Source of the DNA: a virus
Length of the DNA stretch: 44,586 nt
Reading direction: 5' to 3' (one strand)
Virus record (IMG/VR): IMGVR_UViG_3300048930_000060
Span: 1 to 44,586 of that record
Shown: piece after piece, positions 507 to 30,183 of the stretch
How the letters are laid out: the number at the start of each line of letters is the position of its first letter
Position numbering within the stretch: the stretch's first letter is position 1
The notes under the pieces: model-generated
The model's input: only the letters and a program-made list of their open reading frames with translations
The model's database searches: none
Told to the model about the DNA's origin: nothing
Made by a program: the position numbers and the translations under genes

Positions 507-1696
507 ACGTCTAGTCCCACAAGCGGTGCGGCGTTCTCAATTTCACTGTAGTGATATGTTACGGTGATACTTGCGCCGGTTGTCCCGGCAGCCTTTTTGA
601 TCACCTCGGCCATGCTCAGGCGCGTCGACACAGCCATCGCCGTCACACCAGAGGCGTTGCGGGGTATGGTCGCCACCAAATCCCCGTTAATGTAAAAATA
701 AGCGGGCCGCAAGGTGTTATCTGTTGGGTGTGATACGACGAGTATCCTGAGTGTATAAATGCCCGCAATCGTCACCGGGATGCCGGTATCTACCCTGCGG
801 TAGTTTGCTGCCCCAGACGCGTTACTTATCCACACCGCGTGCCAGTTGGTGTCGCCTGTTTTAAACTCAAAAAACACGCCAAGGCCAGAACCTAAAACGG
901 CTATCTCAGGTGCGCTGTCGATAAACCCACATTGCAGCGTGTAGCCCTCACCGCCAGTAGGCAGAAGGCCGCCCATCGTGATCGTTTTGCGGTAGTCGAT
1001 ATCGTAAGAAACGGGGTTATACAGTATCGGGTATTCAAGGTGCTCAAGGCATCCTCTACCTGTGGTAGTTGTCCCTGCGGATACCGTCGCTGCGGCTACG
1101 TTTGTGAATGATTGTAAATTATAGACACCCGAATTTGTGCCGCTTCCATAGCACAGAAACGGCTCTAGCCCGCAGGCCACCCCAACCGAGCCATCAGGCG
1201 CGCTGAATGTCTTTGACAGTTTCGTGAAATTGGAAAAACTCTTGTTTACCGTCTTGCTATGCCCCAGCTGCGCCCTGATAGGGTTGCCCGCTATCTGCTG
1301 AACCGTCAGGCTCACCGGGTCGCCGCCTTGCGTGGTGGCGAACTTCTCCACGCCGGTGGGTGCAGTGCCGGGCGTCATGCCGTCCAGATCAGTGACAGCA
1401 TCTTTTATAACTTCAATGACTGTTTTGTTTAACGAGCTGTTATCTAATAGCGTTACACCATCTCCTGTGAAATCGAGGGTTTGTCTTTGAGGGAGAGCAC
1501 TACCTTCATCCGCAACTATGTGGCCGCCGCTGAGGCTAGGGTCAAACGGACGATTGATCCAAGTATCAGTGCTCTCTTCGTACTGAAGGGTATCCCCTTG
1601 TATTGGAGTTGTGATTGTGACATCTTGATGCTCACCCAATTCATGCGGAGTTACAGTGGTGTGTGGGTTGCCCCTCCCTTCAAAGAAACCTGTCAT
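503..1696 (-). CDS. Tail fibre / host-recognition protein, chimeric
   Basis: A 397-residue protein. Residues 1-60 carry a short repetitive fibre-type motif (HELGEHQDV, LQYEESTDTWINRP) typical of podovirus fibre N-termini that attach to the tail. Residues from about 105 on are beta-rich and glycine-rich and end in a segment resembling a lectin or glucanase jelly roll (GDTNWHAVWIS, YTLRILVVSH, YINGDLVATIP). The ATG overlaps the TAA of the adaptor gene (TAATG), and the stop overlaps the start of the glycosidase gene (ATGA), so the three genes are coupled. Base composition changes near 1380-1440: the N-terminal code looks like the neighbouring head genes, while the rest is GC-richer like the glycosidase. 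That fits replacement of the receptor-binding part. Family inferred; no enzymatic motif seen. Confidence 0.7.
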   Translation of the reverse strand: MTGFFEGRGNPHTTVTPHELGEHQDVTITTPIQGDTLQYEESTDTWINRPFDPSLSGGHIVADEGSALPQRQTLDFTGDGVTLLDNSSLNKTVIEVIKDAVTDLDGMTPGTAPTGVEKFATTQGGDPVSLTVQQIAGNPIRAQLGHSKTVNKSFSNFTKLSKTFSAPDGSVGVACGLEPFLCYGSGTNSGVYNLQSFTNVAAATVSAGTTTTGRGCLEHLEYPILYNPVSYDIDYRKTITMGGLLPTGGEGYTLQCGFIDSAPEIAVLGSGLGVFFEFKTGDTNWHAVWISNASGAANYRRVDTGIPVTIAGIYTLRILVVSHPTDNTLRPAYFYINGDLVATIPRNASGVTAMAVSTRLSMAEVIKKAAGTTGASITVTYHYSEIENAAPLVGLDV

Positions 1697-13200: not shown

Positions 13201-13299
13201 ATGCACAAGTCTGACTGTTCAGAGTATGCAATTGACAGGCAACAACTTGTACAACAACTGATACAGCAATGGCTGGAGGGGGTGAAAGGTGTACGATAG
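13201..13299 (+). CDS. Hypothetical 32-aa peptide
   Basis: ATG 13201 follows AAGGAG at ideal spacing, and the frame (MHKSDCSEYAIDRQQLVQ onward) runs to a stop that overlaps the start of the vWA gene by 11 bases. It is helical and Gln-rich. One imperfect AAGTCTGA...TCAGAGT dyad (13207-13225) lies in its first codons. It may act as a coupling leader for the large gene behind it. Confidence 0.5.
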   Translation: MHKSDCSEYAIDRQQLVQQLIQQWLEGVKGVR

Positions 13300-14965
13300 T
13301 AGAGGGTTATTCCTAGCAGTACAACGTGTAGCAGGGGCTAACAAGCTCAAGCTGGTGCAAGAAGAAGGATGCACTCAGCCGTGTACGGATATGAAATCAG
13401 GGGAGGTGTTTGTACCTAGACTTAATCCCTTCTGGCCTCCTGAACTAGTAGATAAATGGCTTGGTGAGGTGTATCACGAGATTGGGCATCATGCCCCAGA
13501 GCTTGGTGATATGCTGCCGTTAATGGACGCTATCAAGCTCAAGTGTGACAGCTTGCTGGGTAAGCTGATGAATGTGTTTGAAGATGTACGTAATGAGATG
13601 AATCATCGCGGTAGATTCCCCGGTAGGGATGTATCACTCTCTCGTATACAAGCCTTCTATTGTAAGAAGGGCGTTGAGTCTATCAAGGAACATGGCCTAC
13701 CTACTGATGATAAGGATATGTGTCTAGTAGCTCAGGCATTAGCATTGGCCTACGACTGGCGTAAGAAGTACCAACCTGATCTTGCCTTGCCGTCCTTGCA
13801 GTTCAGCGAGATGGTGGAGTGGGGCCGTTACTCTCATCTGCAATCGCGGCTTGATACGCTGCTCACTGCTCAGGATGTACATGACCTGGCTCTTGAGTTC
13901 CTTGAAGAATCACCTGACCACGATAAGGAAGAAGAGGAGGAGAAAGCTACTCAACCCGGAGAAGGTGAGGGTGAAGAGGGGGAAGGCGAAGGTGAGGGGG
14001 GAAGTGGTAAGTCTGATGGTTCAGACGATGATGAAGGTAAGCCTACCGGTGGTAAGGTGAGCTATAAGGACTTGATGGGTCATCTGCACAGTGATAAGCG
14101 TGGGGAAGGCTACCAAGTAGAGATTGTCTACGACCATGAACACCGACACGACTACATTCCGTGGGAGGGGATGCGTGTTGTTCGTGCAAGGGACTTGGAT
14201 GCTGGAACCAAGACTACTAAAAATCTTATAACACGTTATTACGACAGCGGTAAGGTGTTGGCTAGCGTGGCTCGTAGGCTGTTCCAATCACGTACACAGT
14301 CCCGTACTAGCCACAATCATCTGACTGGTAGGCTGGATAAGCGTGATCTGTATCGTGTACCTAGCGGGAATAAGGATGTGTTCAAGCGTAAGGAGTTGGC
14401 TACCAACCCAAAGGGTACAGCACTGTTCCTTCTCACTGATGCATCTGGTAGTATGCAAAACGCTGATAAGTTCGAGGTGACAGGGGCAGCAGTTGCCCTA
14501 CTCAACGATGCCTGTAGTCCGCTGGGTATACCGTTGAAGATAGCGGCATTCACCGAGAGGTACCCGCAATGCTCACACTTTGTCGTGAAGGAGTATGACG
14601 AACGGAGAACACCCGAAGCTATCATTGATGACTACACTCGCATCGAAAAGGAGTTGTACCAGAATGCTGATGGTGAGTCAGTGATGTGGGCAGCAACTGA
14701 TCTAATCCAGCGCAAGGAAGCTAGGAAGATACTGATTGTCTTGTCTGATGGTCAGCCTTCTGCCGACAACGAAGGGGATGTATACACCTATACGAAGGAG
14801 GTGGTGAAGGCTGTTGCGAAATGGCCTAACATGGAAGTATATGGGATAGGGATACTTAGCGATGCTGTTAAGGATTTCTACCATGAGTACACTGTACTTA
14901 ACGATGTACACAAGCTCGAAGAATGTTTAATCAACCTTGTCAAAACCAAAATCTTTAAGGAGTAA
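13289..14965 (+). CDS. CobT-like protein: HExxH zincin-type domain plus vWA domain
   Basis: 558 residues from GTG 13289 (GGAGGGGGTGAAAG upstream). Residues 61-69 read VYHEIGHHA, an HExxH metallopeptidase-type zinc motif (H63, E64, H67). It is followed by LMNVFEDVRNEMNHRGRFPG, which could supply the third ligand and matches the CobT family pattern. Residues ~215-260 form a very acidic Glu/Gly linker. The C-terminal vWA domain has a MIDAS motif TDASGSM (D384), and LSDGQPS supplies a later metal-site Asp. The next gene encodes a MoxR/CobS-type AAA+ ATPase, so the two should form a remodelling complex like CobS-CobT or MoxR-vWA systems. Whether it acts on cobalt chelation, host proteins or phage particles is unknown. 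Confidence 0.85.
   Translation: MYDSRGLFLAVQRVAGANKLKLVQEEGCTQPCTDMKSGEVFVPRLNPFWPPELVDKWLGEVYHEIGHHAPELGDMLPLMDAIKLKCDSLLGKLMNVFEDVRNEMNHRGRFPGRDVSLSRIQAFYCKKGVESIKEHGLPTDDKDMCLVAQALALAYDWRKKYQPDLALPSLQFSEMVEWGRYSHLQSRLDTLLTAQDVHDLALEFLEESPDHDKEEEEEKATQPGEGEGEEGEGEGEGGSGKSDGSDDDEGKPTGGKVSYKDLMGHLHSDKRGEGYQVEIVYDHEHRHDYIPWEGMRVVRARDLDAGTKTTKNLITRYYDSGKVLASVARRLFQSRTQSRTSHNHLTGRLDKRDLYRVPSGNKDVFKRKELATNPKGTALFLLTDASGSMQNADKFEVTGAAVALLNDACSPLGIPLKIAAFTERYPQCSHFVVKEYDERRTPEAIIDDYTRIEKELYQNADGESVMWAATDLIQRKEARKILIVLSDGQPSADNEGDVYTYTKEVVKAVAKWPNMEVYGIGILSDAVKDFYHEYTVLNDVHKLEECLINLVKTKIFKE
14010..14027. repeat. AGTCTGA-type dyad, one mismatch, inside the vWA gene
   Basis: AGTCTGA-TGGT-TCAGACG, within the acidic linker code (KSDGSDDDE). 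It shows that the dyad family also occurs inside genes. Confidence 0.6.
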
Positions 14966-14970
14966 TGATT

Positions 14971-16050
14971 ATGTCAGAAGTTAAATCAGTAGCAGACGAG
15001 CTGATGGAATACCTTGCCTCACGTAAGGGTGGGGTAGTGCCGCCAGTTGAGTGTATACCAGCAGAGCCAGAGGTTGAAGTGGAAGAGCTGCTCCCCGCAC
15101 CTAAGCTGGAAGCTACCCCGTGGAGCACTCGTGCTGATGGGAAGAAGATGCGGCTTGTCCCCTTCTCTGAGAAGTTCTGGCCACCCATTGTTGTACCTGA
15201 TCACATGGTAGCAGAGTTTGATGGGTATGACAGCTCTACCCCGAAGGCGCTGTACATCCCACCTAAGTCGGAGTTTGAGTGGTACTCCTTTGCAGTGACG
15301 AGTGGTATTAAGACGCTGATGGTAGGCCCGACAGGGTGCGGTAAGACATTACTCCCTGAATACTACGCAGCGGTATGTGGTCGTCCCTTCCTTCGTGTAG
15401 ATAATACACAAGAGCTGGATAAGGCTCAGGTGTTTGGTACTATTCACATCACTGACGGAGATACAAACTTTGTGCCGGGGGATATCCCACTGTCCTGCTC
15501 TGCCCCTACTATCGTCGTACTTGACGAGTTATCGAGGGCTACTGGTGGGGCTAACATGATCTACAAGCGTATGCTTGACCGGGGTGAAGTGTATATGCCT
15601 GAGATGAAAGAGGCAGGCACCAAGGCTATCACCCCTGATGAGTATTGGTCGCTGTGTGCCACTGATAACACTAAGGGTGACGGGGAGGACATGGATAAGT
15701 ATCCTATGTCTAACGTGCAAGACGCTGCATTCCGTAATGCATGGGGTATCTTGTTGGAGTTTGACTATCTCCCAAAGGAGCAAGAAGCCGACATGATAGC
15801 AGCACTTTCCCCGAAGATGAAGAAGAGTGATGTTAAGAAGCTGGCTAGCTTTAGTGAGCTGGTACACTCTGGATTCAAGAAGGGGGAGATTAACACAGCC
15901 TTCTCTCCTCGCCAGATTGACACCATCTGTAAGATATTCAACAGCGGGGTGCCGTTGCCTAGTGCTGTAGCAATGGCTTACATTAACTTCTGCTCTAAGT
16001 CTGAGATGTCAGATGTACGAGAGACTTTCCGAGCCGTGTTCGGGGCGTAA
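14971..16050 (+). CDS. MoxR/CobS-type AAA+ ATPase
   Basis: About 359 residues. ATG 14971 is chosen because AAGGAG lies eight bases upstream; an ATG six bases earlier overlaps the previous stop (TAATG). Walker A is GPTGCGKT (residues 119-126) and Walker B is IVVLDELSRA. A sensor region (WSLCATDNT) and a C-terminal lid with FSPRQIDTICKIF follow. This is the layout of MoxR/CobS ATPases, which work with a vWA partner, here the upstream gene. It should use ATP to remodel or load metal into a target through that partner. The N-terminal 60 residues are acidic and proline-rich, unlike the core. Confidence 0.9.
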   Translation: MSEVKSVADELMEYLASRKGGVVPPVECIPAEPEVEVEELLPAPKLEATPWSTRADGKKMRLVPFSEKFWPPIVVPDHMVAEFDGYDSSTPKALYIPPKSEFEWYSFAVTSGIKTLMVGPTGCGKTLLPEYYAAVCGRPFLRVDNTQELDKAQVFGTIHITDGDTNFVPGDIPLSCSAPTIVVLDELSRATGGANMIYKRMLDRGEVYMPEMKEAGTKAITPDEYWSLCATDNTKGDGEDMDKYPMSNVQDAAFRNAWGILLEFDYLPKEQEADMIAALSPKMKKSDVKKLASFSELVHSGFKKGEINTAFSPRQIDTICKIFNSGVPLPSAVAMAYINFCSKSEMSDVRETFRAVFGA

Positions 16051-18891: not shown

Positions 18892-20855
18892 AGATTGATT
18901 ATTCATTTGATATAGAAACAATGATGCCTTATACAAACGGCATTAGGGTGTGTGGGTTGTACCAGACAGGCAGGCCGTTCTGCACAGCTTACAACGCTGG
19001 TGGTTTGACCGCTATGCTGCTTTCAACAGAATCTAATACGACTATAGCTACATGGAATGGGCAGCGGTTTGATTGGAAAGTGTTGAAGGAGTTGTATAAG
19101 ATTGACATGGATGGATTCCTCCTTAAGTCTAACATACAACATATTGATGGGATGCTGTTGGCTAAGATGGTATTGCCTGAGCTTCCAAGTTACTCACTTG
19201 CCAATGTAGCTAAGCATCTGTTCCCTCACCACCCTGAGTATCACAAGGATGTAGTACCTAAAGATGAAGAGGGGAAGAGGAAGTTCTACAACGAGACACC
19301 TATGTCTGAGTTGACAGACTACTTGAAGCAAGACCTCATCACTACACTTGCTGTGACACAAAAGCTTGTCGATATTGCAGAAGAGCGTATCCCCTTCGCT
19401 CACTGGCTTCACCCCTTGAAAGTGGAACAGGCTGTAGCGGAGATTATACAGCGTCAGGTGGACACGGGTGTTAGGTTTGACTACAACAAGGCTCTTGCTG
19501 TTTGTGATGCTCTGATAACAACCAAGCTGAGTATGGAAGCTATGTTGGAGGCTTTACTACCAGTAGCTCCTGTCCCCTCTCTTGACTACCCCCCTAAGAA
19601 GCAGTTCAAGTTAAACGGGGAGCCCACTGTCTCTATTACCAACTACTGCGCTAAGTATAACTTCGCTATAGTTAATTTTAGTGGTGTTTGGTACGCAGTA
19701 AATGGAAGTGAGCAGCGCGTTCTCCCACTTATCAACCCGCTAGTAACCGACAGTAAGCTGCGCCCTGCTGAACAGGGGAGGATTAAAGAATACCTCTTAT
19801 CGCAAGGCTGGGTTCCTACACAATGGAACCAGACCAAGGACAAAGACGGTAAGTGGAAGAAGACAAGCCCACGCCTCACTGACAGGACAACCAAAGAGCC
19901 ATGTCCTAACCTCCTGAAGATGGGAGTGGGCTGGGTGAACTTGCTGGCTGACTGGCTGCAAGTGAGGGCTAAGCTTTCTATTTTGGAGGGGGAGAGTGGT
20001 AAGACGGGATGGATACCTACTTGTGAAATTACAGACGATCTCTACCATGTTCTCCGTAGTGATGCAGATACGTGTGGAACACCAACAGCTAGGTTTAAGC
20101 ACAGGAATATTGTCAACGTCCCTCGTGTCACTAGCTTCATGGGGAAGGAATTTAGAGGGCTGTTCATCCCACGAGATGGTATGAAGATAGTGGGGTGGGA
20201 TGCTGATGCTCTTGAGGCTAGGATGGAAGCTCACTATGTCCACCCGTTTGATCCTGATTATGCTAAGACCTTGATCGAAGGGGATAGCAAACTGGGGACT
20301 GACATACACACTCTCAACTGGAAGCGATTAGGTCTGAGAAACAGAGATGATGCTAAGACATTCAAGTATGCTATCACCTACGGGGCTAGACCTCCTAAGT
20401 TGGCAGAGAGTTTGAATGTAGCTCTTTATGCGGCAGAAGACTGGTATGATAAGTTCTGGGATAACAACACTGGGCTGTCTGACCTTATCAATGAATTAGA
20501 AGAAGAGTGGCGTGGGTTAGGTAAGAAGTGTCTGGTGGGGCTGGATGGTAGGTTGCTGACAACACGTAAGCCTCACGCTCTACTGAACACCAAGCTACAA
20601 GGTGGTGGTAGTATCCTGATGAAACACGCCATGATAATGGCTGACAGGCGTATAACGAAGTTATATGGGAGTGAGAAGGCACACGGACTTATCCGTATGC
20701 ATGATGAGGAGCAATGGGAATGTGCAGAGGAGATTGCTGATGAAGTAGGACGAATAGGGTGTGAAAGTGTTGTGGCTGCTGGGGAGTATTTAAAATTGAA
20801 TGTCCCTATGTCAGCTACATATAAGATTGGCAACTCGTGGGCAGACACGCACTGA
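18888..20855 (+). CDS. DNA polymerase, family A (T7-like)
   Basis: 655 residues. The proofreading domain has exo I FDIET (residues 7-11), exo II WNGQRFDWKVL and exo III YLKQDLITT. The polymerase domain has motif A GWDADALEARM, motif B RDDAKTFKYAITYGAR and motif C MHDEEQW. All catalytic acids are present. It replicates the genome with the upstream helicase. The ATG overlaps the primase stop (ATGA) and its stop overlaps the endonuclease start (TGATG). No thioredoxin gene is seen nearby, so a host processivity factor is possible. Confidence 0.95.
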   Translation: MKIDYSFDIETMMPYTNGIRVCGLYQTGRPFCTAYNAGGLTAMLLSTESNTTIATWNGQRFDWKVLKELYKIDMDGFLLKSNIQHIDGMLLAKMVLPELPSYSLANVAKHLFPHHPEYHKDVVPKDEEGKRKFYNETPMSELTDYLKQDLITTLAVTQKLVDIAEERIPFAHWLHPLKVEQAVAEIIQRQVDTGVRFDYNKALAVCDALITTKLSMEAMLEALLPVAPVPSLDYPPKKQFKLNGEPTVSITNYCAKYNFAIVNFSGVWYAVNGSEQRVLPLINPLVTDSKLRPAEQGRIKEYLLSQGWVPTQWNQTKDKDGKWKKTSPRLTDRTTKEPCPNLLKMGVGWVNLLADWLQVRAKLSILEGESGKTGWIPTCEITDDLYHVLRSDADTCGTPTARFKHRNIVNVPRVTSFMGKEFRGLFIPRDGMKIVGWDADALEARMEAHYVHPFDPDYAKTLIEGDSKLGTDIHTLNWKRLGLRNRDDAKTFKYAITYGARPPKLAESLNVALYAAEDWYDKFWDNNTGLSDLINELEEEWRGLGKKCLVGLDGRLLTTRKPHALLNTKLQGGGSILMKHAMIMADRRITKLYGSEKAHGLIRMHDEEQWECAEEIADEVGRIGCESVVAAGEYLKLNVPMSATYKIGNSWADTH

Positions 20856-21286
20856 TGAAAGTTTGTACTGATTGTAAAGAAGCTAAACACTTAAACGATT
20901 TCTTCAAACAGAAAGCGAATAAGGATGGTCTGCGTGGTATGTGTAAAGTTTGTGATAATAAGAAAAGGAAAGTACATAACGCAAAAGACCCTGAAAGATG
21001 GCAACGCAACAGAAGAAATACGCAACTACTCCATAAATATAATATAACAATCGAAGACTACGAAAGTCTATTGAAGAAACAAGGAGGGAGGTGTGCAATA
21101 TGTAACGGAGAACAAGAGTATGCTTTATACGGAACTAACAAGTCTCTTAGTTTGGCTGTAGATCATTGCCATACAACTAATAAAGTTAGGGGGTTATTAT
21201 GTAACAATTGCAACAGAGGGATAGGAATGTTAGGTGATACTGCGGAAGCTCTACAAAGAGCAGTGGACTACCTAATTAAAACTTGA
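20855..21286 (+). CDS. Recombination endonuclease VII (HNH/zinc)
   Basis: 143 residues starting in a TGATG overlap with the polymerase gene. Two CxxC pairs near the N-terminus (CTDC and CKVC) are followed by CAIC, the VDHCH catalytic motif and GLLCNNCNRGIG, the classic His-Me-finger pattern of phage T4 endonuclease VII. The enzyme resolves branched DNA before packaging, although homing-type relatives are also common next to polymerase genes. The code is more AT-rich than its neighbours, which fits an inserted mobile nuclease. Confidence 0.9.
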   Translation: MKVCTDCKEAKHLNDFFKQKANKDGLRGMCKVCDNKKRKVHNAKDPERWQRNRRNTQLLHKYNITIEDYESLLKKQGGRCAICNGEQEYALYGTNKSLSLAVDHCHTTNKVRGLLCNNCNRGIGMLGDTAEALQRAVDYLIKT

Positions 21287-25552: not shown

Positions 25553-25604
25553 CAGTATGCTAAGTGCTGTAGCTGACACCTACCTCACTACCACGGTGCA
25601 TTGA
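25386..25604 (+). CDS. Hypothetical 72-aa protein overlapping the exonuclease gene
   Basis: ATG 25386 has GAGGAA five bases upstream. The peptide (MKEPKDKSNIIQFPTKRK, then LLALATDSMLSAVADTYL) looks like a normal small phage protein with a basic linear N-terminus and a helical end. Its first 167 bases lie out of frame over the exonuclease 3' end. The stop overlaps the HNH gene (TGATG). Function unknown. Confidence 0.65.
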   Translation: MKEPKDKSNIIQFPTKRKQEEGEASHVLIKLKKGRMEIHTTLDPLYAHALLALATDSMLSAVADTYLTTTVH

Positions 25605-25981
25605 TGGGTAGGCGTGTCAACAAACCCCGTGCTGGTGGTATCTGGTCTGAGGCTAGGTACTTTGCCTTTATAAGGGGAGCGTTACGCAAGGCAGCTTCTC
25701 GCTACCCTGTAAAACTCTCTATCAAGAAGAAGGCAAGAAGAAAGAAGCCAGAAGGGGTGGAAGGTAGACACGTCTATGAGTTCCAGTGTAAGCATTGCAC
25801 TGGGTGGTTTCCAGATAAGGACGTGGAGGTTGACCATATCATACCAGCCGGGACACTAAAGACATACAATGACCTCCCTCGCTTTGTGGAGCTTCTATTC
25901 TGCGAGGAAGATAACTTACAACTGCTCTGTAAGACTTGTCACGGAGCTAAAACCAAGAGGGAACGTGAGGAACGGAAATGA
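25604..25981 (+). CDS. HNH endonuclease
   Basis: 125 residues, ATG in a TGATG overlap. A basic N-terminal half (SIKKKARRKK) precedes the HNH fold: CKHC zinc pair, EVDHIIPAG (catalytic His), then NLQLLCKTCHGAKT with the second zinc pair and the final His. It cuts DNA and may help packaging or act as a homing or host-DNA nuclease. It is coupled on both sides by overlaps, which favours a phage function over a free mobile nuclease. Confidence 0.88.
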   Translation: MGRRVNKPRAGGIWSEARYFAFIRGALRKAASRYPVKLSIKKKARRKKPEGVEGRHVYEFQCKHCTGWFPDKDVEVDHIIPAGTLKTYNDLPRFVELLFCEEDNLQLLCKTCHGAKTKREREERK

Positions 25982-26196
25982 CTAAACGGGATCAAGTAAA
26001 AGAGATTGTAGATAGTATGCTGGATTACTTTGATGCAGCCAGTTTTGATGAGTTGGATGACAGCATGATGGGTGATCTAGTGACGGAGTTGGAAGACTGT
26101 CTTGAGATAGAACTACCACTACAGATACTGGATGAAGAACTGACACGTAAACAATTCATTGATGTTGTTCTACAAGTGTATGAGGAATCATTCTAA
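25978..26196 (+). CDS. Small acidic acyl-carrier-protein-like polypeptide
   Basis: 72 residues, ATGA overlap with the HNH gene and TAATG with the next. It is strongly acidic. After a helix (RDQVKEIVDSMLDYF) the centre reads SFDELDDSMMGDLVTELED, CLEIELP, then LTRKQFIDVVLQVY. Order and spacing match acyl carrier proteins (DSL-x-x-x-ELV-x-x-LE...I.IP...T...), with Ser in DSM at the place of the phosphopantetheine serine. It may mimic or replace a host carrier protein. This is by-eye similarity; a chance acidic four-helix protein is the alternative. Confidence 0.5.
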   Translation: MTKRDQVKEIVDSMLDYFDAASFDELDDSMMGDLVTELEDCLEIELPLQILDEELTRKQFIDVVLQVYEESF

Positions 26197-26372
26197 TGTC
26201 CAAAGGGAGTAGGAGGAGGAAGACAAATGAAGAAGTCTACAAAAGCAACTGGGACAAAATCTTCGGAGAAAAAGAACGGAGAGGTGACAGTAGAGTGGAT
26301 AGAAGCAAAGATAACAGCACACAGGCAAATGATAGCCACTTACCAACAGATGATGAAGGAGATAAAGTATGA
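26196..26372 (+). CDS. Conserved small phage protein (58 aa)
   Basis: ATG 26196 in a TAATG overlap. It begins MSKGSRRRKTNEEVYKSNWD and continues KIFGEKERRG. The 'MSKGSR+R...NWDxIFG' pattern is a widely seen small phage protein of unknown role. Its end is acidic and polar. The stop overlaps the 26369 gene (ATGA). Most of its length also codes for another peptide in the next frame. Confidence 0.7.
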   Translation: MSKGSRRRKTNEEVYKSNWDKIFGEKERRGDSRVDRSKDNSTQANDSHLPTDDEGDKV

Positions 26373-26391
26373 GCAATCAGACAAACAGTGA
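26227..26391 (+). CDS. Nested 54-aa protein in an alternative frame
   Basis: ATG 26227 is preceded by AGGAGGAGGAAG, a very strong Shine-Dalgarno formed by the Ser-Arg-Arg-Arg-Lys codons of the overlapping gene. The peptide (MKKSTKATGTKSSEKKN, then VEWIEAKITAHRQMIATYQQ) has a basic head and a clear amphipathic helix. It is nested out of frame in 26196-26372. Expression is likely from the ribosome site; function unknown. Confidence 0.55.
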   Translation: MKKSTKATGTKSSEKKNGEVTVEWIEAKITAHRQMIATYQQMMKEIKYEQSDKQ

Positions 26392-26578
26392 CGGCGGGAC
26401 TGTATTCATTGTCGAAACTCCTGATGAGATATTCTGGAGTAAGAGGGCTATGGATGCTCAGTACCGACATATGGACTTCCTCTGGAGAGATCGGGCTAAG
26501 TACAAAGAACTGTCTGGGTTCCGCTTCAAGAAGCTGACTGAGACAACTAAAAAACGCGTATGGGAGATAGTGGCATGA
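26369..26578 (+). CDS. Hypothetical 69-aa protein
   Basis: ATGA overlaps on both sides. The peptide (MSNQTNSDGGTVFIVETPDE, then FWSKRAMDAQYRHMDFLW) is charged and aromatic with a helical C-terminus. No motif recognised. It belongs to the compact run of small genes ahead of the phosphoesterase. Confidence 0.7.
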   Translation: MSNQTNSDGGTVFIVETPDEIFWSKRAMDAQYRHMDFLWRDRAKYKELSGFRFKKLTETTKKRVWEIVA

Positions 26579-27054
26579 AGACTGGAGGTCCACGGGTGAG
26601 TAACCCAAAGAAACCGAAGAGAAAAGTAGAAGAGGCGAATACCCTTACATCGCCCCCCTCTATTCATACTTGGGCAGATAGCATAACAACATCAACTCCA
26701 TTCGATACACTTCATCTTCCCCGAGAAGAGTACGGGTCTATGCAGGAAGCTGCTGTTAAAAAGTCTACAGAGGATATGATAATAGCTCGTGAGGAAGTTT
26801 GGAAAGCTGTAGTGAGGGAGGCAGCTACTTTTGGTAAGTCAACCATCGGTACGGGATTCCGACCAAAAGAGAAGACTTGTGTAATACCTGAAGAGTTACT
26901 GAGGGAGTTACTAGATCATGTGAAAGCTTTGGAGAAGGAAGTGGAGGCTATTAAACACCCAGTGTATTATACTGCTGATGTTTCGGATAAACCGCAAATG
27001 CCCCTCTTCTCAGATATGGCTCTAGAGAAACTCTTTGGAAAGGGGAAGATATAA
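26575..27054 (+). CDS. Hypothetical 159-aa protein
   Basis: ATG 26575 in an ATGA overlap is preferred to the in-frame ATG 26560. The N-terminus is basic (VSNPKKPKRKVEEAN). Two helical segments (KKSTEDMIIAREEVWKAVVR and LLRELLDHVKALEKEVEAI) suggest a coiled-coil oligomer. The C-terminal DKPQMPLFSDMALEKLFG looks like a linear interaction motif. Coupled to the phosphoesterase gene (TAATG). Family not recognised. Confidence 0.7.
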   Translation: MKTGGPRVSNPKKPKRKVEEANTLTSPPSIHTWADSITTSTPFDTLHLPREEYGSMQEAAVKKSTEDMIIAREEVWKAVVREAATFGKSTIGTGFRPKEKTCVIPEELLRELLDHVKALEKEVEAIKHPVYYTADVSDKPQMPLFSDMALEKLFGKGKI

Positions 27055-27821
27055 TGGCTAGACATCTTATTTTGCCGGACACACAAGTGAAACCCGGAGA
27101 GAGTATAGATCACTTGCTTTGGGCAGGTAAGTATGCTGTTGATATGCAACCTGACACTATCATCTGCATTGGTGACTGGTGGGACATGGGGAGTTTGAGC
27201 AGCTACGACAAAGGGAAGAAATCATTCGAGGGGAGAAGGTATGTTAAAGACATTGAAGCTGGCAATAGTGCTATGGATTTATTCATGGAGCCAATCCGCA
27301 GTTTACAGCTTACGCAGAAGCTTAATAAGAAAAGGGTATGGACACCGCGCCTTATATTCACAAGGGGCAACCATGAAGAGCGAATCGAACGCGCCATTAA
27401 CGATGATGCAATGCTGGACGCTCTCATGTCGTTTGACAATGACACCAACCTCAAACAGTGGGGATGGGAAGTTCATCCATTCCTTAGCGTGGTGGTTGTT
27501 GATGGTGTCGCTTATTCTCACTATTTTACTTCCGGTGTTATGGGTAGGCCAGTCACTTCAGCTCGTGCTCTTCTAACCAAGAAGCATATGTCCTGTGTCA
27601 TGGGCCATGTACAGCAACGAGATATAGCCTTCTCTGAAACAGCAGATGGTAGGAGGATGACAGGGATACACGTTGGGGTATATAGCCCTCACGAAGAAAC
27701 ATATCTGAACCCTCAGACTAACCAGCATTGGAGAGGGTTGTGGGTGTTACATGAAGTGAAAGATGGCAGCTTTGATGAGATGCCAGTGAGCCTCTCTTAT
27801 CTGGAGAAGAAGTATGGATGA
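27054..27821 (+). CDS. Calcineurin-like metallophosphoesterase
   Basis: 255 residues. Metal-binding motifs occur in order: LILPDTQVKPG (D-x-Q/H), CIGDWWDMGS (GD.xD), FTRGNHEERI (GNHE), SHYF and GHVQQ. Such phage enzymes may process nucleic acid ends or nucleotides, or remove host phosphate groups. The code of its central part (27340-27560) is slightly richer in GC. It starts in TAATG and its end overlaps the next gene by eight bases. Confidence 0.88.
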   Translation: MARHLILPDTQVKPGESIDHLLWAGKYAVDMQPDTIICIGDWWDMGSLSSYDKGKKSFEGRRYVKDIEAGNSAMDLFMEPIRSLQLTQKLNKKRVWTPRLIFTRGNHEERIERAINDDAMLDALMSFDNDTNLKQWGWEVHPFLSVVVVDGVAYSHYFTSGVMGRPVTSARALLTKKHMSCVMGHVQQRDIAFSETADGRRMTGIHVGVYSPHEETYLNPQTNQHWRGLWVLHEVKDGSFDEMPVSLSYLEKKYG

Positions 27822-28361: not shown

Positions 28362-28552
28362 CGACGATTTACGGAAGCACCTTCGGGGCATCGTGGGCAC
28401 CGCACGGAAAGGAACCAAAGCTAGAGGAACGAAAGCCCATAGCGAAGAAACAAAGTATAACAGGAAAGAAAAGCACAAAGTTGACAAGGCGACAGAAGAG
28501 GATTCTCAATGAAGTCTTTAATCCAGAAGATGCAAAGTGGGGGCCACTATGA
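28358..28552 (+). CDS. Hypothetical 64-aa basic protein
   Basis: ATGA overlaps with both neighbours. A Gly/Ser-rich start (MTTIYGSTFGASWAP) is followed by a Lys/Arg-rich middle (KKSTKLTRRQKRILNEVF). It may bind nucleic acid. A competing frame exists but lacks the gene overlaps that mark real genes here. Confidence 0.6.
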   Translation: MTTIYGSTFGASWAPHGKEPKLEERKPIAKKQSITGKKSTKLTRRQKRILNEVFNPEDAKWGPL

Positions 28553-30183
28553 GCTTTAGAAATCAATTCGGGGAATCAATTTTCCGTCACAAGTATGCTA
28601 ACTCTGCAACTCAGACTTGGGCTGAGAAGTGTGATGATATTGTCAGGGATGTCACTACCAACCTGTTCCCACCTGAGATGCAAGTAGAGCTGCGTACTTA
28701 CATGGAGCAGCTTAAGTTCCTTCCCGGTGGACGGTACATCTACTACGGTGGTAAGCAGGCTAGCTTTTACAACAATTGTTTCCTGTTAAAAGGAGAGGAG
28801 GATACACGTGAAGAATGGGGGAGACTCCTTAACAGGGCTTCTGATTGCTTAATGAGCGGGGGCGGTATTGGGATTGATTACAGCGTTTTTCGTCCACGAG
28901 GGAGTCACCTTGGGCGCACCGGAGGTACAGCATCCGGCCCTATACCTCTCATGCATTCAATTAACGAAGTCGGACGTAATGTTATGCAGGGAGGTAGTAG
29001 ACGTAGTGCGATCTACGCCTCTCTGAACTGGCAGCACAAGGATGTACAAGAGTTTATGCTGATGAAGAACTGGAAGAATCAGTTCGTCTCAGAAGGTGTT
29101 ACAGTGCATGATGCGAAGCGATTCAACTTCAACTACCCTGCACCAATGGATCAGACTAACATCAGCCTAAACTACGACAACAAGTTCCTCGATCACATCA
29201 GTCAAGGACACCTACCACCTACGTTTGTACAGAACTGTAGGCAAGCAATGGAAACAGGAGAGCCGGGATTCTCCTTCAACTTTGGAGATCAAGAAAGTGA
29301 AACACTTAGAAACGCTTGCACAGAAGTTACATCATCTGACGATAGCGATGTATGCAATTTGGGCAGTGTTAACCTTGGGGCTATTTCTAACATCGAAGAG
29401 TTTCGACAGGTCGTTCGACTTGCTGCTGGTTTTCTCGTCTGCGGCACTATTACGGCTGATCTACCTTACGATAAAGTATACGCTATACGCAAGAAGAACC
29501 GAAGGTTAGGGCTTGGTTTGATGGGGATACACGAGTGGCTGCTAAAGCGTGGGTATCCCTATGGGATGAATCCTGAGCTGAGGCAGTGGATGGAAGTATA
29601 TCGAGAGGAGAGTGAACGTGCAGCTAATTCTTTATGTGATAAACTTTCTATTAGTCGCCCTGTTGCTTATCGCGCTATTGCGCCTACTGGTACCATTGGC
29701 ATCTTGGCAGGAACGACTACCGGAATTGAGCCTTTGTATGCTGTATCTTATAAGCGTCGTTATCTTGTTGGTGGGGAGCAGTGGAAGTACGAGTATGTGG
29801 TAGACAGTACGGCAGAAGCCCTCATTACTGAGTATGGCTTAGACCCAGAAAGCATAGAAACATCTTCCGCCATGACTACTAACTTTGAGAAGAGGATAGC
29901 GTTTCAGGCAGATGTGCAAGACTATGTTGACATGGCTATCAGTAGCACAATCAACCTCCCTGCATGGGGAAGTGAAGAGAATAACGAGGATAAAGTGGAA
30001 AGCTTCAGCAGGATACTGGCTAAGTATGCCCCACGCTTGCGTGGCTTTACTGCCTACCCTGACGGGGCTAGAGGAGGGCAACCTCTCACCTCCTGTACTT
30101 ACAAAGAGGCAAAGAGGCATAAGGGTGTGGTGTTTGAAGAGAATTCAGAGGCTGGTTGTGCTTCTGGCGTATGTGGCATTTAA
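28549..30183 (+). CDS. Ribonucleotide reductase, class II (adenosylcobalamin-dependent)
   Basis: 544 residues from ATG 28549 (ATGA overlap). The cysteine pair of the active site appears as NNCFLL (N-terminal half) and CNLGSVNL. The radical-site N-x-C-x-E motif is NACTEV. RAIAPTGTIGILAGTTTGIEP is the phosphate-binding loop region, given in full only by position around 29675-29735. The C-terminal redox pair is CASGVC. No small (class I) subunit or class III activase is present, and the sequence style is the B12-dependent NrdJ type, shorter than many cellular ones. It makes dNTPs from host ribonucleotides. Confidence 0.9.
   Translation: MSFRNQFGESIFRHKYANSATQTWAEKCDDIVRDVTTNLFPPEMQVELRTYMEQLKFLPGGRYIYYGGKQASFYNNCFLLKGEEDTREEWGRLLNRASDCLMSGGGIGIDYSVFRPRGSHLGRTGGTASGPIPLMHSINEVGRNVMQGGSRRSAIYASLNWQHKDVQEFMLMKNWKNQFVSEGVTVHDAKRFNFNYPAPMDQTNISLNYDNKFLDHISQGHLPPTFVQNCRQAMETGEPGFSFNFGDQESETLRNACTEVTSSDDSDVCNLGSVNLGAISNIEEFRQVVRLAAGFLVCGTITADLPYDKVYAIRKKNRRLGLGLMGIHEWLLKRGYPYGMNPELRQWMEVYREESERAANSLCDKLSISRPVAYRAIAPTGTIGILAGTTTGIEPLYAVSYKRRYLVGGEQWKYEYVVDSTAEALITEYGLDPESIETSSAMTTNFEKRIAFQADVQDYVDMAISSTINLPAWGSEENNEDKVESFSRILAKYAPRLRGFTAYPDGARGGQPLTSCTYKEAKRHKGVVFEENSEAGCASGVCGI

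Follow-up and report, generated by a model that had tools for sequence, protein, structure and literature searches.

The question raised by this locus is whether a tailed phage encodes, in a small open reading frame (ORF) lying within a cluster of nuclease and other small genes, a relative of the acyl carrier proteins (ACPs), and, if it does, of which kind and with what possible role. The window analysed here is the entire virus record IMGVR_UViG_3300048930_000060, 44,586 bases in length. A first-pass annotation had placed at positions 25978-26196 an ACP-like polypeptide with a serine in the prosthetic-group position, which might draw host phosphopantetheine or bind host lipid enzymes. It had proposed a PF00550 profile search and a structure prediction as checks, and had named lack of conservation of the serine as a ground for refuting the reading. 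The ORF itself is as described: it lies on the plus strand, starts with ATG, encodes an acidic product of 72 residues (hereafter P0001) and contains all of the sequence strings that had been quoted. Its start codon shares the sequence ATGA with the stop of the HNH endonuclease gene immediately before it (25601-25981, plus strand), and its stop overlaps the ATG of the next small ORF (26196-26372, plus strand) as TAATG. Upstream are found a 5'-3' exonuclease gene, a small ORF and the HNH gene, while downstream are found two small ORFs (the one just mentioned and the "VETP" ORF, 26369-26578, plus strand), an ORF of 164 residues, a metallophosphoesterase gene (27054-27821, plus strand), the gene for a DUF3310 protein and that of a ribonucleotide reductase.

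The metallophosphoesterase served as a synteny anchor for finding relatives, and 80 viral loci were fetched with it. One of these, L015, is close (78% identity in the metallophosphoesterase) and carries, at the same place after the HNH gene and before the VETP ORF, an ORF of 74 residues (P0002). P0002 was retrieved by P0001 from among 9,460 ORFs with E=2.2e-10, all matches ranked below it being noise (E > 6). A gap-free alignment of the two proteins covers 67 residues, 22 of which (33%) are identical. Over the 67 codons, the first, second and third positions differ 35, 25 and 48 times, respectively, the third position being the most changed, as expected of coding sequence. The segment 25978-26196 is a real small gene, which we annotate as a putative carrier-protein homologue from its ATG-initiated ORF, the homologue at the same place in L015 and the helices predicted for its product. 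It is less conserved between the two phages than its neighbours, the HNH gene and the exonuclease both showing 61% identity and the VETP ORF 46%; the small ORF at 26196-26372 has no counterpart in L015. When loci with less than 1500 bases before the anchor were dropped (15 of 83), 68 remained, of which one has the carrier gene and five have the HNH gene, indicating that the carrier is a rare accessory gene. ORFs of 62-67 residues preceding the metallophosphoesterase of MEP401, MEP402 and QDWS535 were considered as the same gene and rejected, as their sequences differ.

Does P0001 belong to the carrier-protein family? The PF00550 search proposed for it was negative: the profile does not match P0001 at E values up to 10, nor does it match anywhere in the window. 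At the same limit, the only matches in all of Pfam were two that fell short of their cut-offs, KAR9 and DUF5805, the latter (E 0.0021, 18.9 bits where 28.5 are required) being disregarded. P0001 had no match in NCBIfam or among PDB sequences and nothing usable in PHROGs, and neither tblastn against 50,697 phage records nor a single-protein scan of viral contigs found a relative. For the sister protein P0002, PF00550 is the sole Pfam match (E=0.0011, 19.6 bits, just short of the cut-off of 20.8), and five of its six NCBIfam matches are ACP or DltC models. When a profile made from both proteins was run against PDB sequences (E up to 10), six of the seven matches were carriers, the best with an E value of 0.074. 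Compared by phmmer with 103 carriers, P0001 reached a best score of 19.7 bits, whereas 200 shuffled versions reached at most 15.6, indicating a carrier likeness beyond chance, in a control that is flattered by the 59 best-scoring of the 103 carriers having been fetched by family resemblance. Applied to 50 related phage records, PF00550 matched two: the sister and, weakly, a frame of 667 residues.

The single-sequence model of P0001 (pLDDT 80.4) contains helices at residues 3-20, 28-42, 48-51 and 57-71, in the same order as in carriers and in the P0002 model. Predicted helix II (residues 28-42, encoded at 26059-26103 on the plus strand) is the acidic "recognition helix" containing TELED, and spans the same residues in the P0002 model. 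A Foldseek search with the P0001 model gave a carrier protein as its best row, at an E value of 1.3; the VIA search placed other helical proteins on top and carriers at Z 4.7 and less, and a BFVD fold search returned no significant match. The P0002 model (pLDDT 88.1) has nearly the same helices. The Foldseek rows listed for it are carrier proteins or entries that contain one, rank 38 being the clear exception, and the best match has an E value of 0.10 and a probability of 0.99. The VIA search retrieved carriers or carrier-like domains, the best with an rmsd of 2.3 over 70 residues and a Z of 7.9, a value which is only middling by the tool's own note. The proposed structure prediction gave the carrier helix order for P0001, with no significant match of its own model, and a predominance of carriers in the lists for P0002. 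Because P0002 has its PF00550 match and a carrier-like model, we consider it very likely that P0001 is related to carrier proteins, mainly by way of this sister.

We then asked whether other phages carry such proteins. A pattern scan over viral contigs gave 38 stretches; inspected by eye, the 33 translated rows included the sister and one further carrier, L120, as the only carriers. A scan with the two-sequence alignment, which used N-terminal patterns only, retrieved the known sister alone, and a looser scan returned many canonical AcpP-like phage carriers among the matches listed. The L120 carrier (84 residues, over the PF00550 cut-off with 31 bits) is encoded on a 136-kb contig. As an observation in its own right, the L120 ORF at 1357-1611 (minus strand) is a clear AcpR-type carrier with an intact DSL, and it lies near ORFs which we take to be NUDIX-like and NAMPT-like.

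To which cellular carriers are these phage proteins closest? A pattern made from P0001, P0002 and L120 was run over genome contigs that, according to the tool, represent 84,980 species, and yielded 59 cellular carrier loci. Of these, 55 contain a serine palmitoyltransferase (SPT), 57 a fatty acyl-AMP ligase and 54 an SDR reductase. The SPT and the acyl-AMP ligase are named by NCBIfam models above their cut-offs in both loci that were tested. This gene set is the aasR-epi-acpR-spt set of PMC9386255, which shows that AcpR, the specialised carrier that feeds SPT in proteobacterial sphingolipid synthesis, bears phosphopantetheine, is acylated by AasR and serves as the preferred SPT substrate, with C. 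crescentus CC_1163 and E. coli BL21 ECD_02853 as examples. L249 and L252, two cellular carriers that closely resemble the phage family, have no SPT in their loci and only a partial acyl-AMP-ligase match nearby; their helix II ends in IPDYEL, and they possibly belong to another carrier system.

Since these loci and genomes had been picked by a pattern taken from the phage carrier family itself, wider whole-genome tests were run. Over 21 of the whole genomes, the profile of the phage pair ranked the fetched carrier best in 20, and 18 of these 20 have an SPT in the locus. P0001 alone, run over six genomes, ranked the SPT-side carrier best in five (E 0.01 to 0.24) and second in the sixth, and the short AcpP-like ORFs of those six genomes listed by PF00550 were absent from the matches of both the pair profile and P0001. 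We also observed second carriers in two genomes, G050:C94:52223-52351 (L312) and G049:C23:311057-311185, which match the phage pair at least as well as the SPT-side carrier does. E. coli BL21 was chosen from PMC9386255, not by pattern, and Smith-Waterman scores against its AcpR and AcpP were 55 and 42 for P0001, 64 and 62 for P0002, and 121 and 68 for L120. In a tree of 46 rows, which included 15 of the 59 cellular carriers and BL21 AcpR, P0001 and P0002 fall inside the AcpR group with support of 97/95. The grouping stays when seven long-branch rows are removed (99/96), and also when eight are removed, P0001 included, which leaves P0002 alone (98/96). AcpR proteins are thus the nearest cellular relatives of the phage pair by search and by tree. 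They share with it a helix II of the MD..ELED type and a proline followed by a hydrophobic residue (IPLN, LPLS or LPLQ), and differ from it in that the phage has no spt or aasR gene, that loop I is shorter in the phage proteins, and that P0001 has an aspartate on the serine column. On balance the affinity of P0001 and P0002 is probably with AcpR.

Other readings of these comparisons must be weighed. P0001 might mimic the housekeeping carrier AcpP or be a variant of it, or be DltC-like, and have no connection with sphingolipids, its likeness to AcpR being a matter of convergence or sampling. The AU tests allow the pair to group with AcpP-like rows, since placements outside the AcpR group were not rejected (p 0.344, 0.205 and 0.143), and the BL21 scores of P0002 are a near tie. 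The pair shares with AcpP (PF00550) its size, acidity and helix order, and P0002 also the DSL, but it lacks the IPDE end of helix II, scores lower, and in the case of P0001 is missed by PF00550. With DltC it shares a Pro-Val-Ser after helix II, and DltC proteins are the top PDB sequence matches of P0002 (E 0.23-0.28); these scores are weak, however, and a DltC identity was set aside as too weakly supported: NF003464 reaches only E 0.073 with P0002, far under its cut-off, and P0001 has no NCBIfam match. Against the AcpP reading also stand the profile comparisons, a profile built from AcpR types and L120 giving 24.8 bits with P0001 and 29.9 with P0002 where an AcpP-like profile gives 7.3 and 14.9, together with the 97/95 support for the AcpR group and the preference for the SPT-side carrier in the whole-genome searches. 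We judge this reading unlikely. A more radical view would be that P0001 is unrelated to carriers and is a small acidic helical phage protein resembling them by chance. This would fit its lack of a direct profile match, its weak single model and the fact that its score against AcpP was reached by 27 of 500 shuffles; against it are the clear homology of P0001 with P0002, whose fold and Pfam match are those of a carrier, and the shuffles that reached the real score with AcpR (2 of 500) or with L120 (0 of 500). Chance likeness is therefore very improbable in our assessment.

The position of the serine bears directly on function. In gap-free alignments of P0001 with P0002, with the proven E. coli AcpR and with the AcpR profile, Asp28 (GAC) stands on the column of the modified serine and Ser29 (AGC) one residue later; the two codons occupy 26059-26064 on the plus strand. 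Thus, D27 D28 S29 of P0001 lies opposite D27 S28 L29 of P0002, and LDDSMMGDL of the window opposite LESIKVMDL of E. coli AcpR. The serine of the P0002 DSL motif, Ser28, opens predicted helix II and precedes the conserved proline by 19 residues, as in AcpP and AcpR. The serine which the first-pass annotation saw in the prosthetic-group position is therefore its neighbour in the gap-free register, Asp28 occupying that position, with a shifted register scoring nearly as well. Indeed, when one deletion was allowed against 44 carriers, the one-residue shift scored worse with 18, better with 7 and the same with 19, a comparison in which the second, compensating gap that the shifted register needs against P0002 was not charged. 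As judged from alignment, score alone would barely settle the register. It is accordingly conceivable, although somewhat unlikely in our view, that P0001 is a working and modifiable carrier in which compensating one-codon changes have slipped the register by one residue, Ser29 of DSM being loaded by host AcpS. The local D-S-M motif with its AGC codon, as in the DSL of the sister, and the 19 carriers with which the shift ties and 7 with which it improves favour such a slip, while the gap-free alignments with the sister (67 residues) and with AcpR, the start of predicted helix II at residue 28 in both P0001 and P0002, and the cost of two compensating gaps against the sister all oppose it. The ground for refutation named at first pass thus applies by half: the sister and the cellular relatives keep the serine, which in P0001 is displaced by one residue. 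As a consequence of this displacement, the proposal that the protein draws host phosphopantetheine is plausible as regards P0002 and doubtful as regards P0001. Another phage protein was seen with an aspartate here: on a different contig, L126, an ACP-like ORF of 126 residues in the 4.0-kb region (minus strand) has DDL instead of DSL and so, among the matches listed, is a second carrier in which Asp occupies the attachment site.

Because the PF00550 search of P0001 gave no match and its serine falls off the modified column, formal PF00550 membership is withheld from P0001; the claim that it works like a carrier is kept. The carrier relationship proposed at first pass is upheld through the sister, with PF00550 as sole Pfam match and a carrier-like model, and through the whole-genome searches.

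How might such a protein act? No SPT was detected in the three phage records searched (those of the window, the sister and L120), a search which had no positive control; nor was an AMP ligase or a phosphopantetheinyl transferase detected in the same three, all of which may be fragments. A carrier without partner enzymes in the phage could act only through those of the host. Tentatively, we favour the reading that P0001 is an orphan, diverged ACP homologue of a tailed phage, most similar to AcpR, which would dock on host carrier-partner enzymes and which, in this phage, is more likely unmodified. The computed part of this reading consists of the homology with the sister, the carrier fold of the sister model, the nearest cellular carriers and the lack of partner enzymes in the phage records. 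The putative binding to host lipid enzymes, also suggested at first pass, is plausible: acidic helix II may dock on the host acyl-AcpR synthetase, SPT, AcpS or fatty-acid enzymes, and docking would then alter how acyl groups or sphingolipids flow in the infected host. Host AcpS could load the canonical DSL serine of the sister phage and of L120; P0001, with an aspartate in its place, is more likely to be an unmodified, competitor-like form. A more specific version, in which these phage proteins are AcpR-type sphingolipid carriers without enzymes, the sister and L120 keeping a loadable serine and the window's line having lost it and become a decoy by which sphingolipid synthesis in the host is blocked or diverted, appears decidedly unlikely to us.

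Phage ACPs as such are known. Excerpts of PMC5463345, PMC11705849 and PMC8224337 mention ORF 32 of Erythrobacter phage vB_EliS-R6L, gp30 of Alteromonas phage R22Y and ACPs of Rhodobacteraceae prophages, and PMC5463345, in the part available, reports phage acyl carriers as auxiliary metabolic genes whose function it calls unclear. ORF 32 and gp30 are, like P0001, stand-alone phage carrier genes, a likeness that is one of description only. In the open-licence literature we found no report of an AcpR-type phage carrier. Excerpts of PMC6445935 describe an increased adsorption of phage phiCr30 upon ceramide loss in C. crescentus, and excerpts of PMC13001222 transient fitness changes from sphingolipid genes in a screen with phage Circe. 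Since ceramides affect phage adsorption and susceptibility in Caulobacter, a phage protein acting on sphingolipids could matter to infection. If P0001 were to alter host sphingolipids, it might act on a surface trait relevant to infection, the precedent being from Caulobacter. In addition, the two sister phages, whose carriers differ at the attachment residue, offer a direct comparison between acyl carrying and binding only.

Elsewhere in the window, a recombination endonuclease VII gene (20837-21286) lies between the DNA polymerase gene and an ORF of 175 residues. PHROGs matches identify a CobT-like gene (13289-16050) and a CobS-like gene (28537-30183), and the ribonucleotide reductase of the same phage shows a weak match to a B12-dependent insertion domain.
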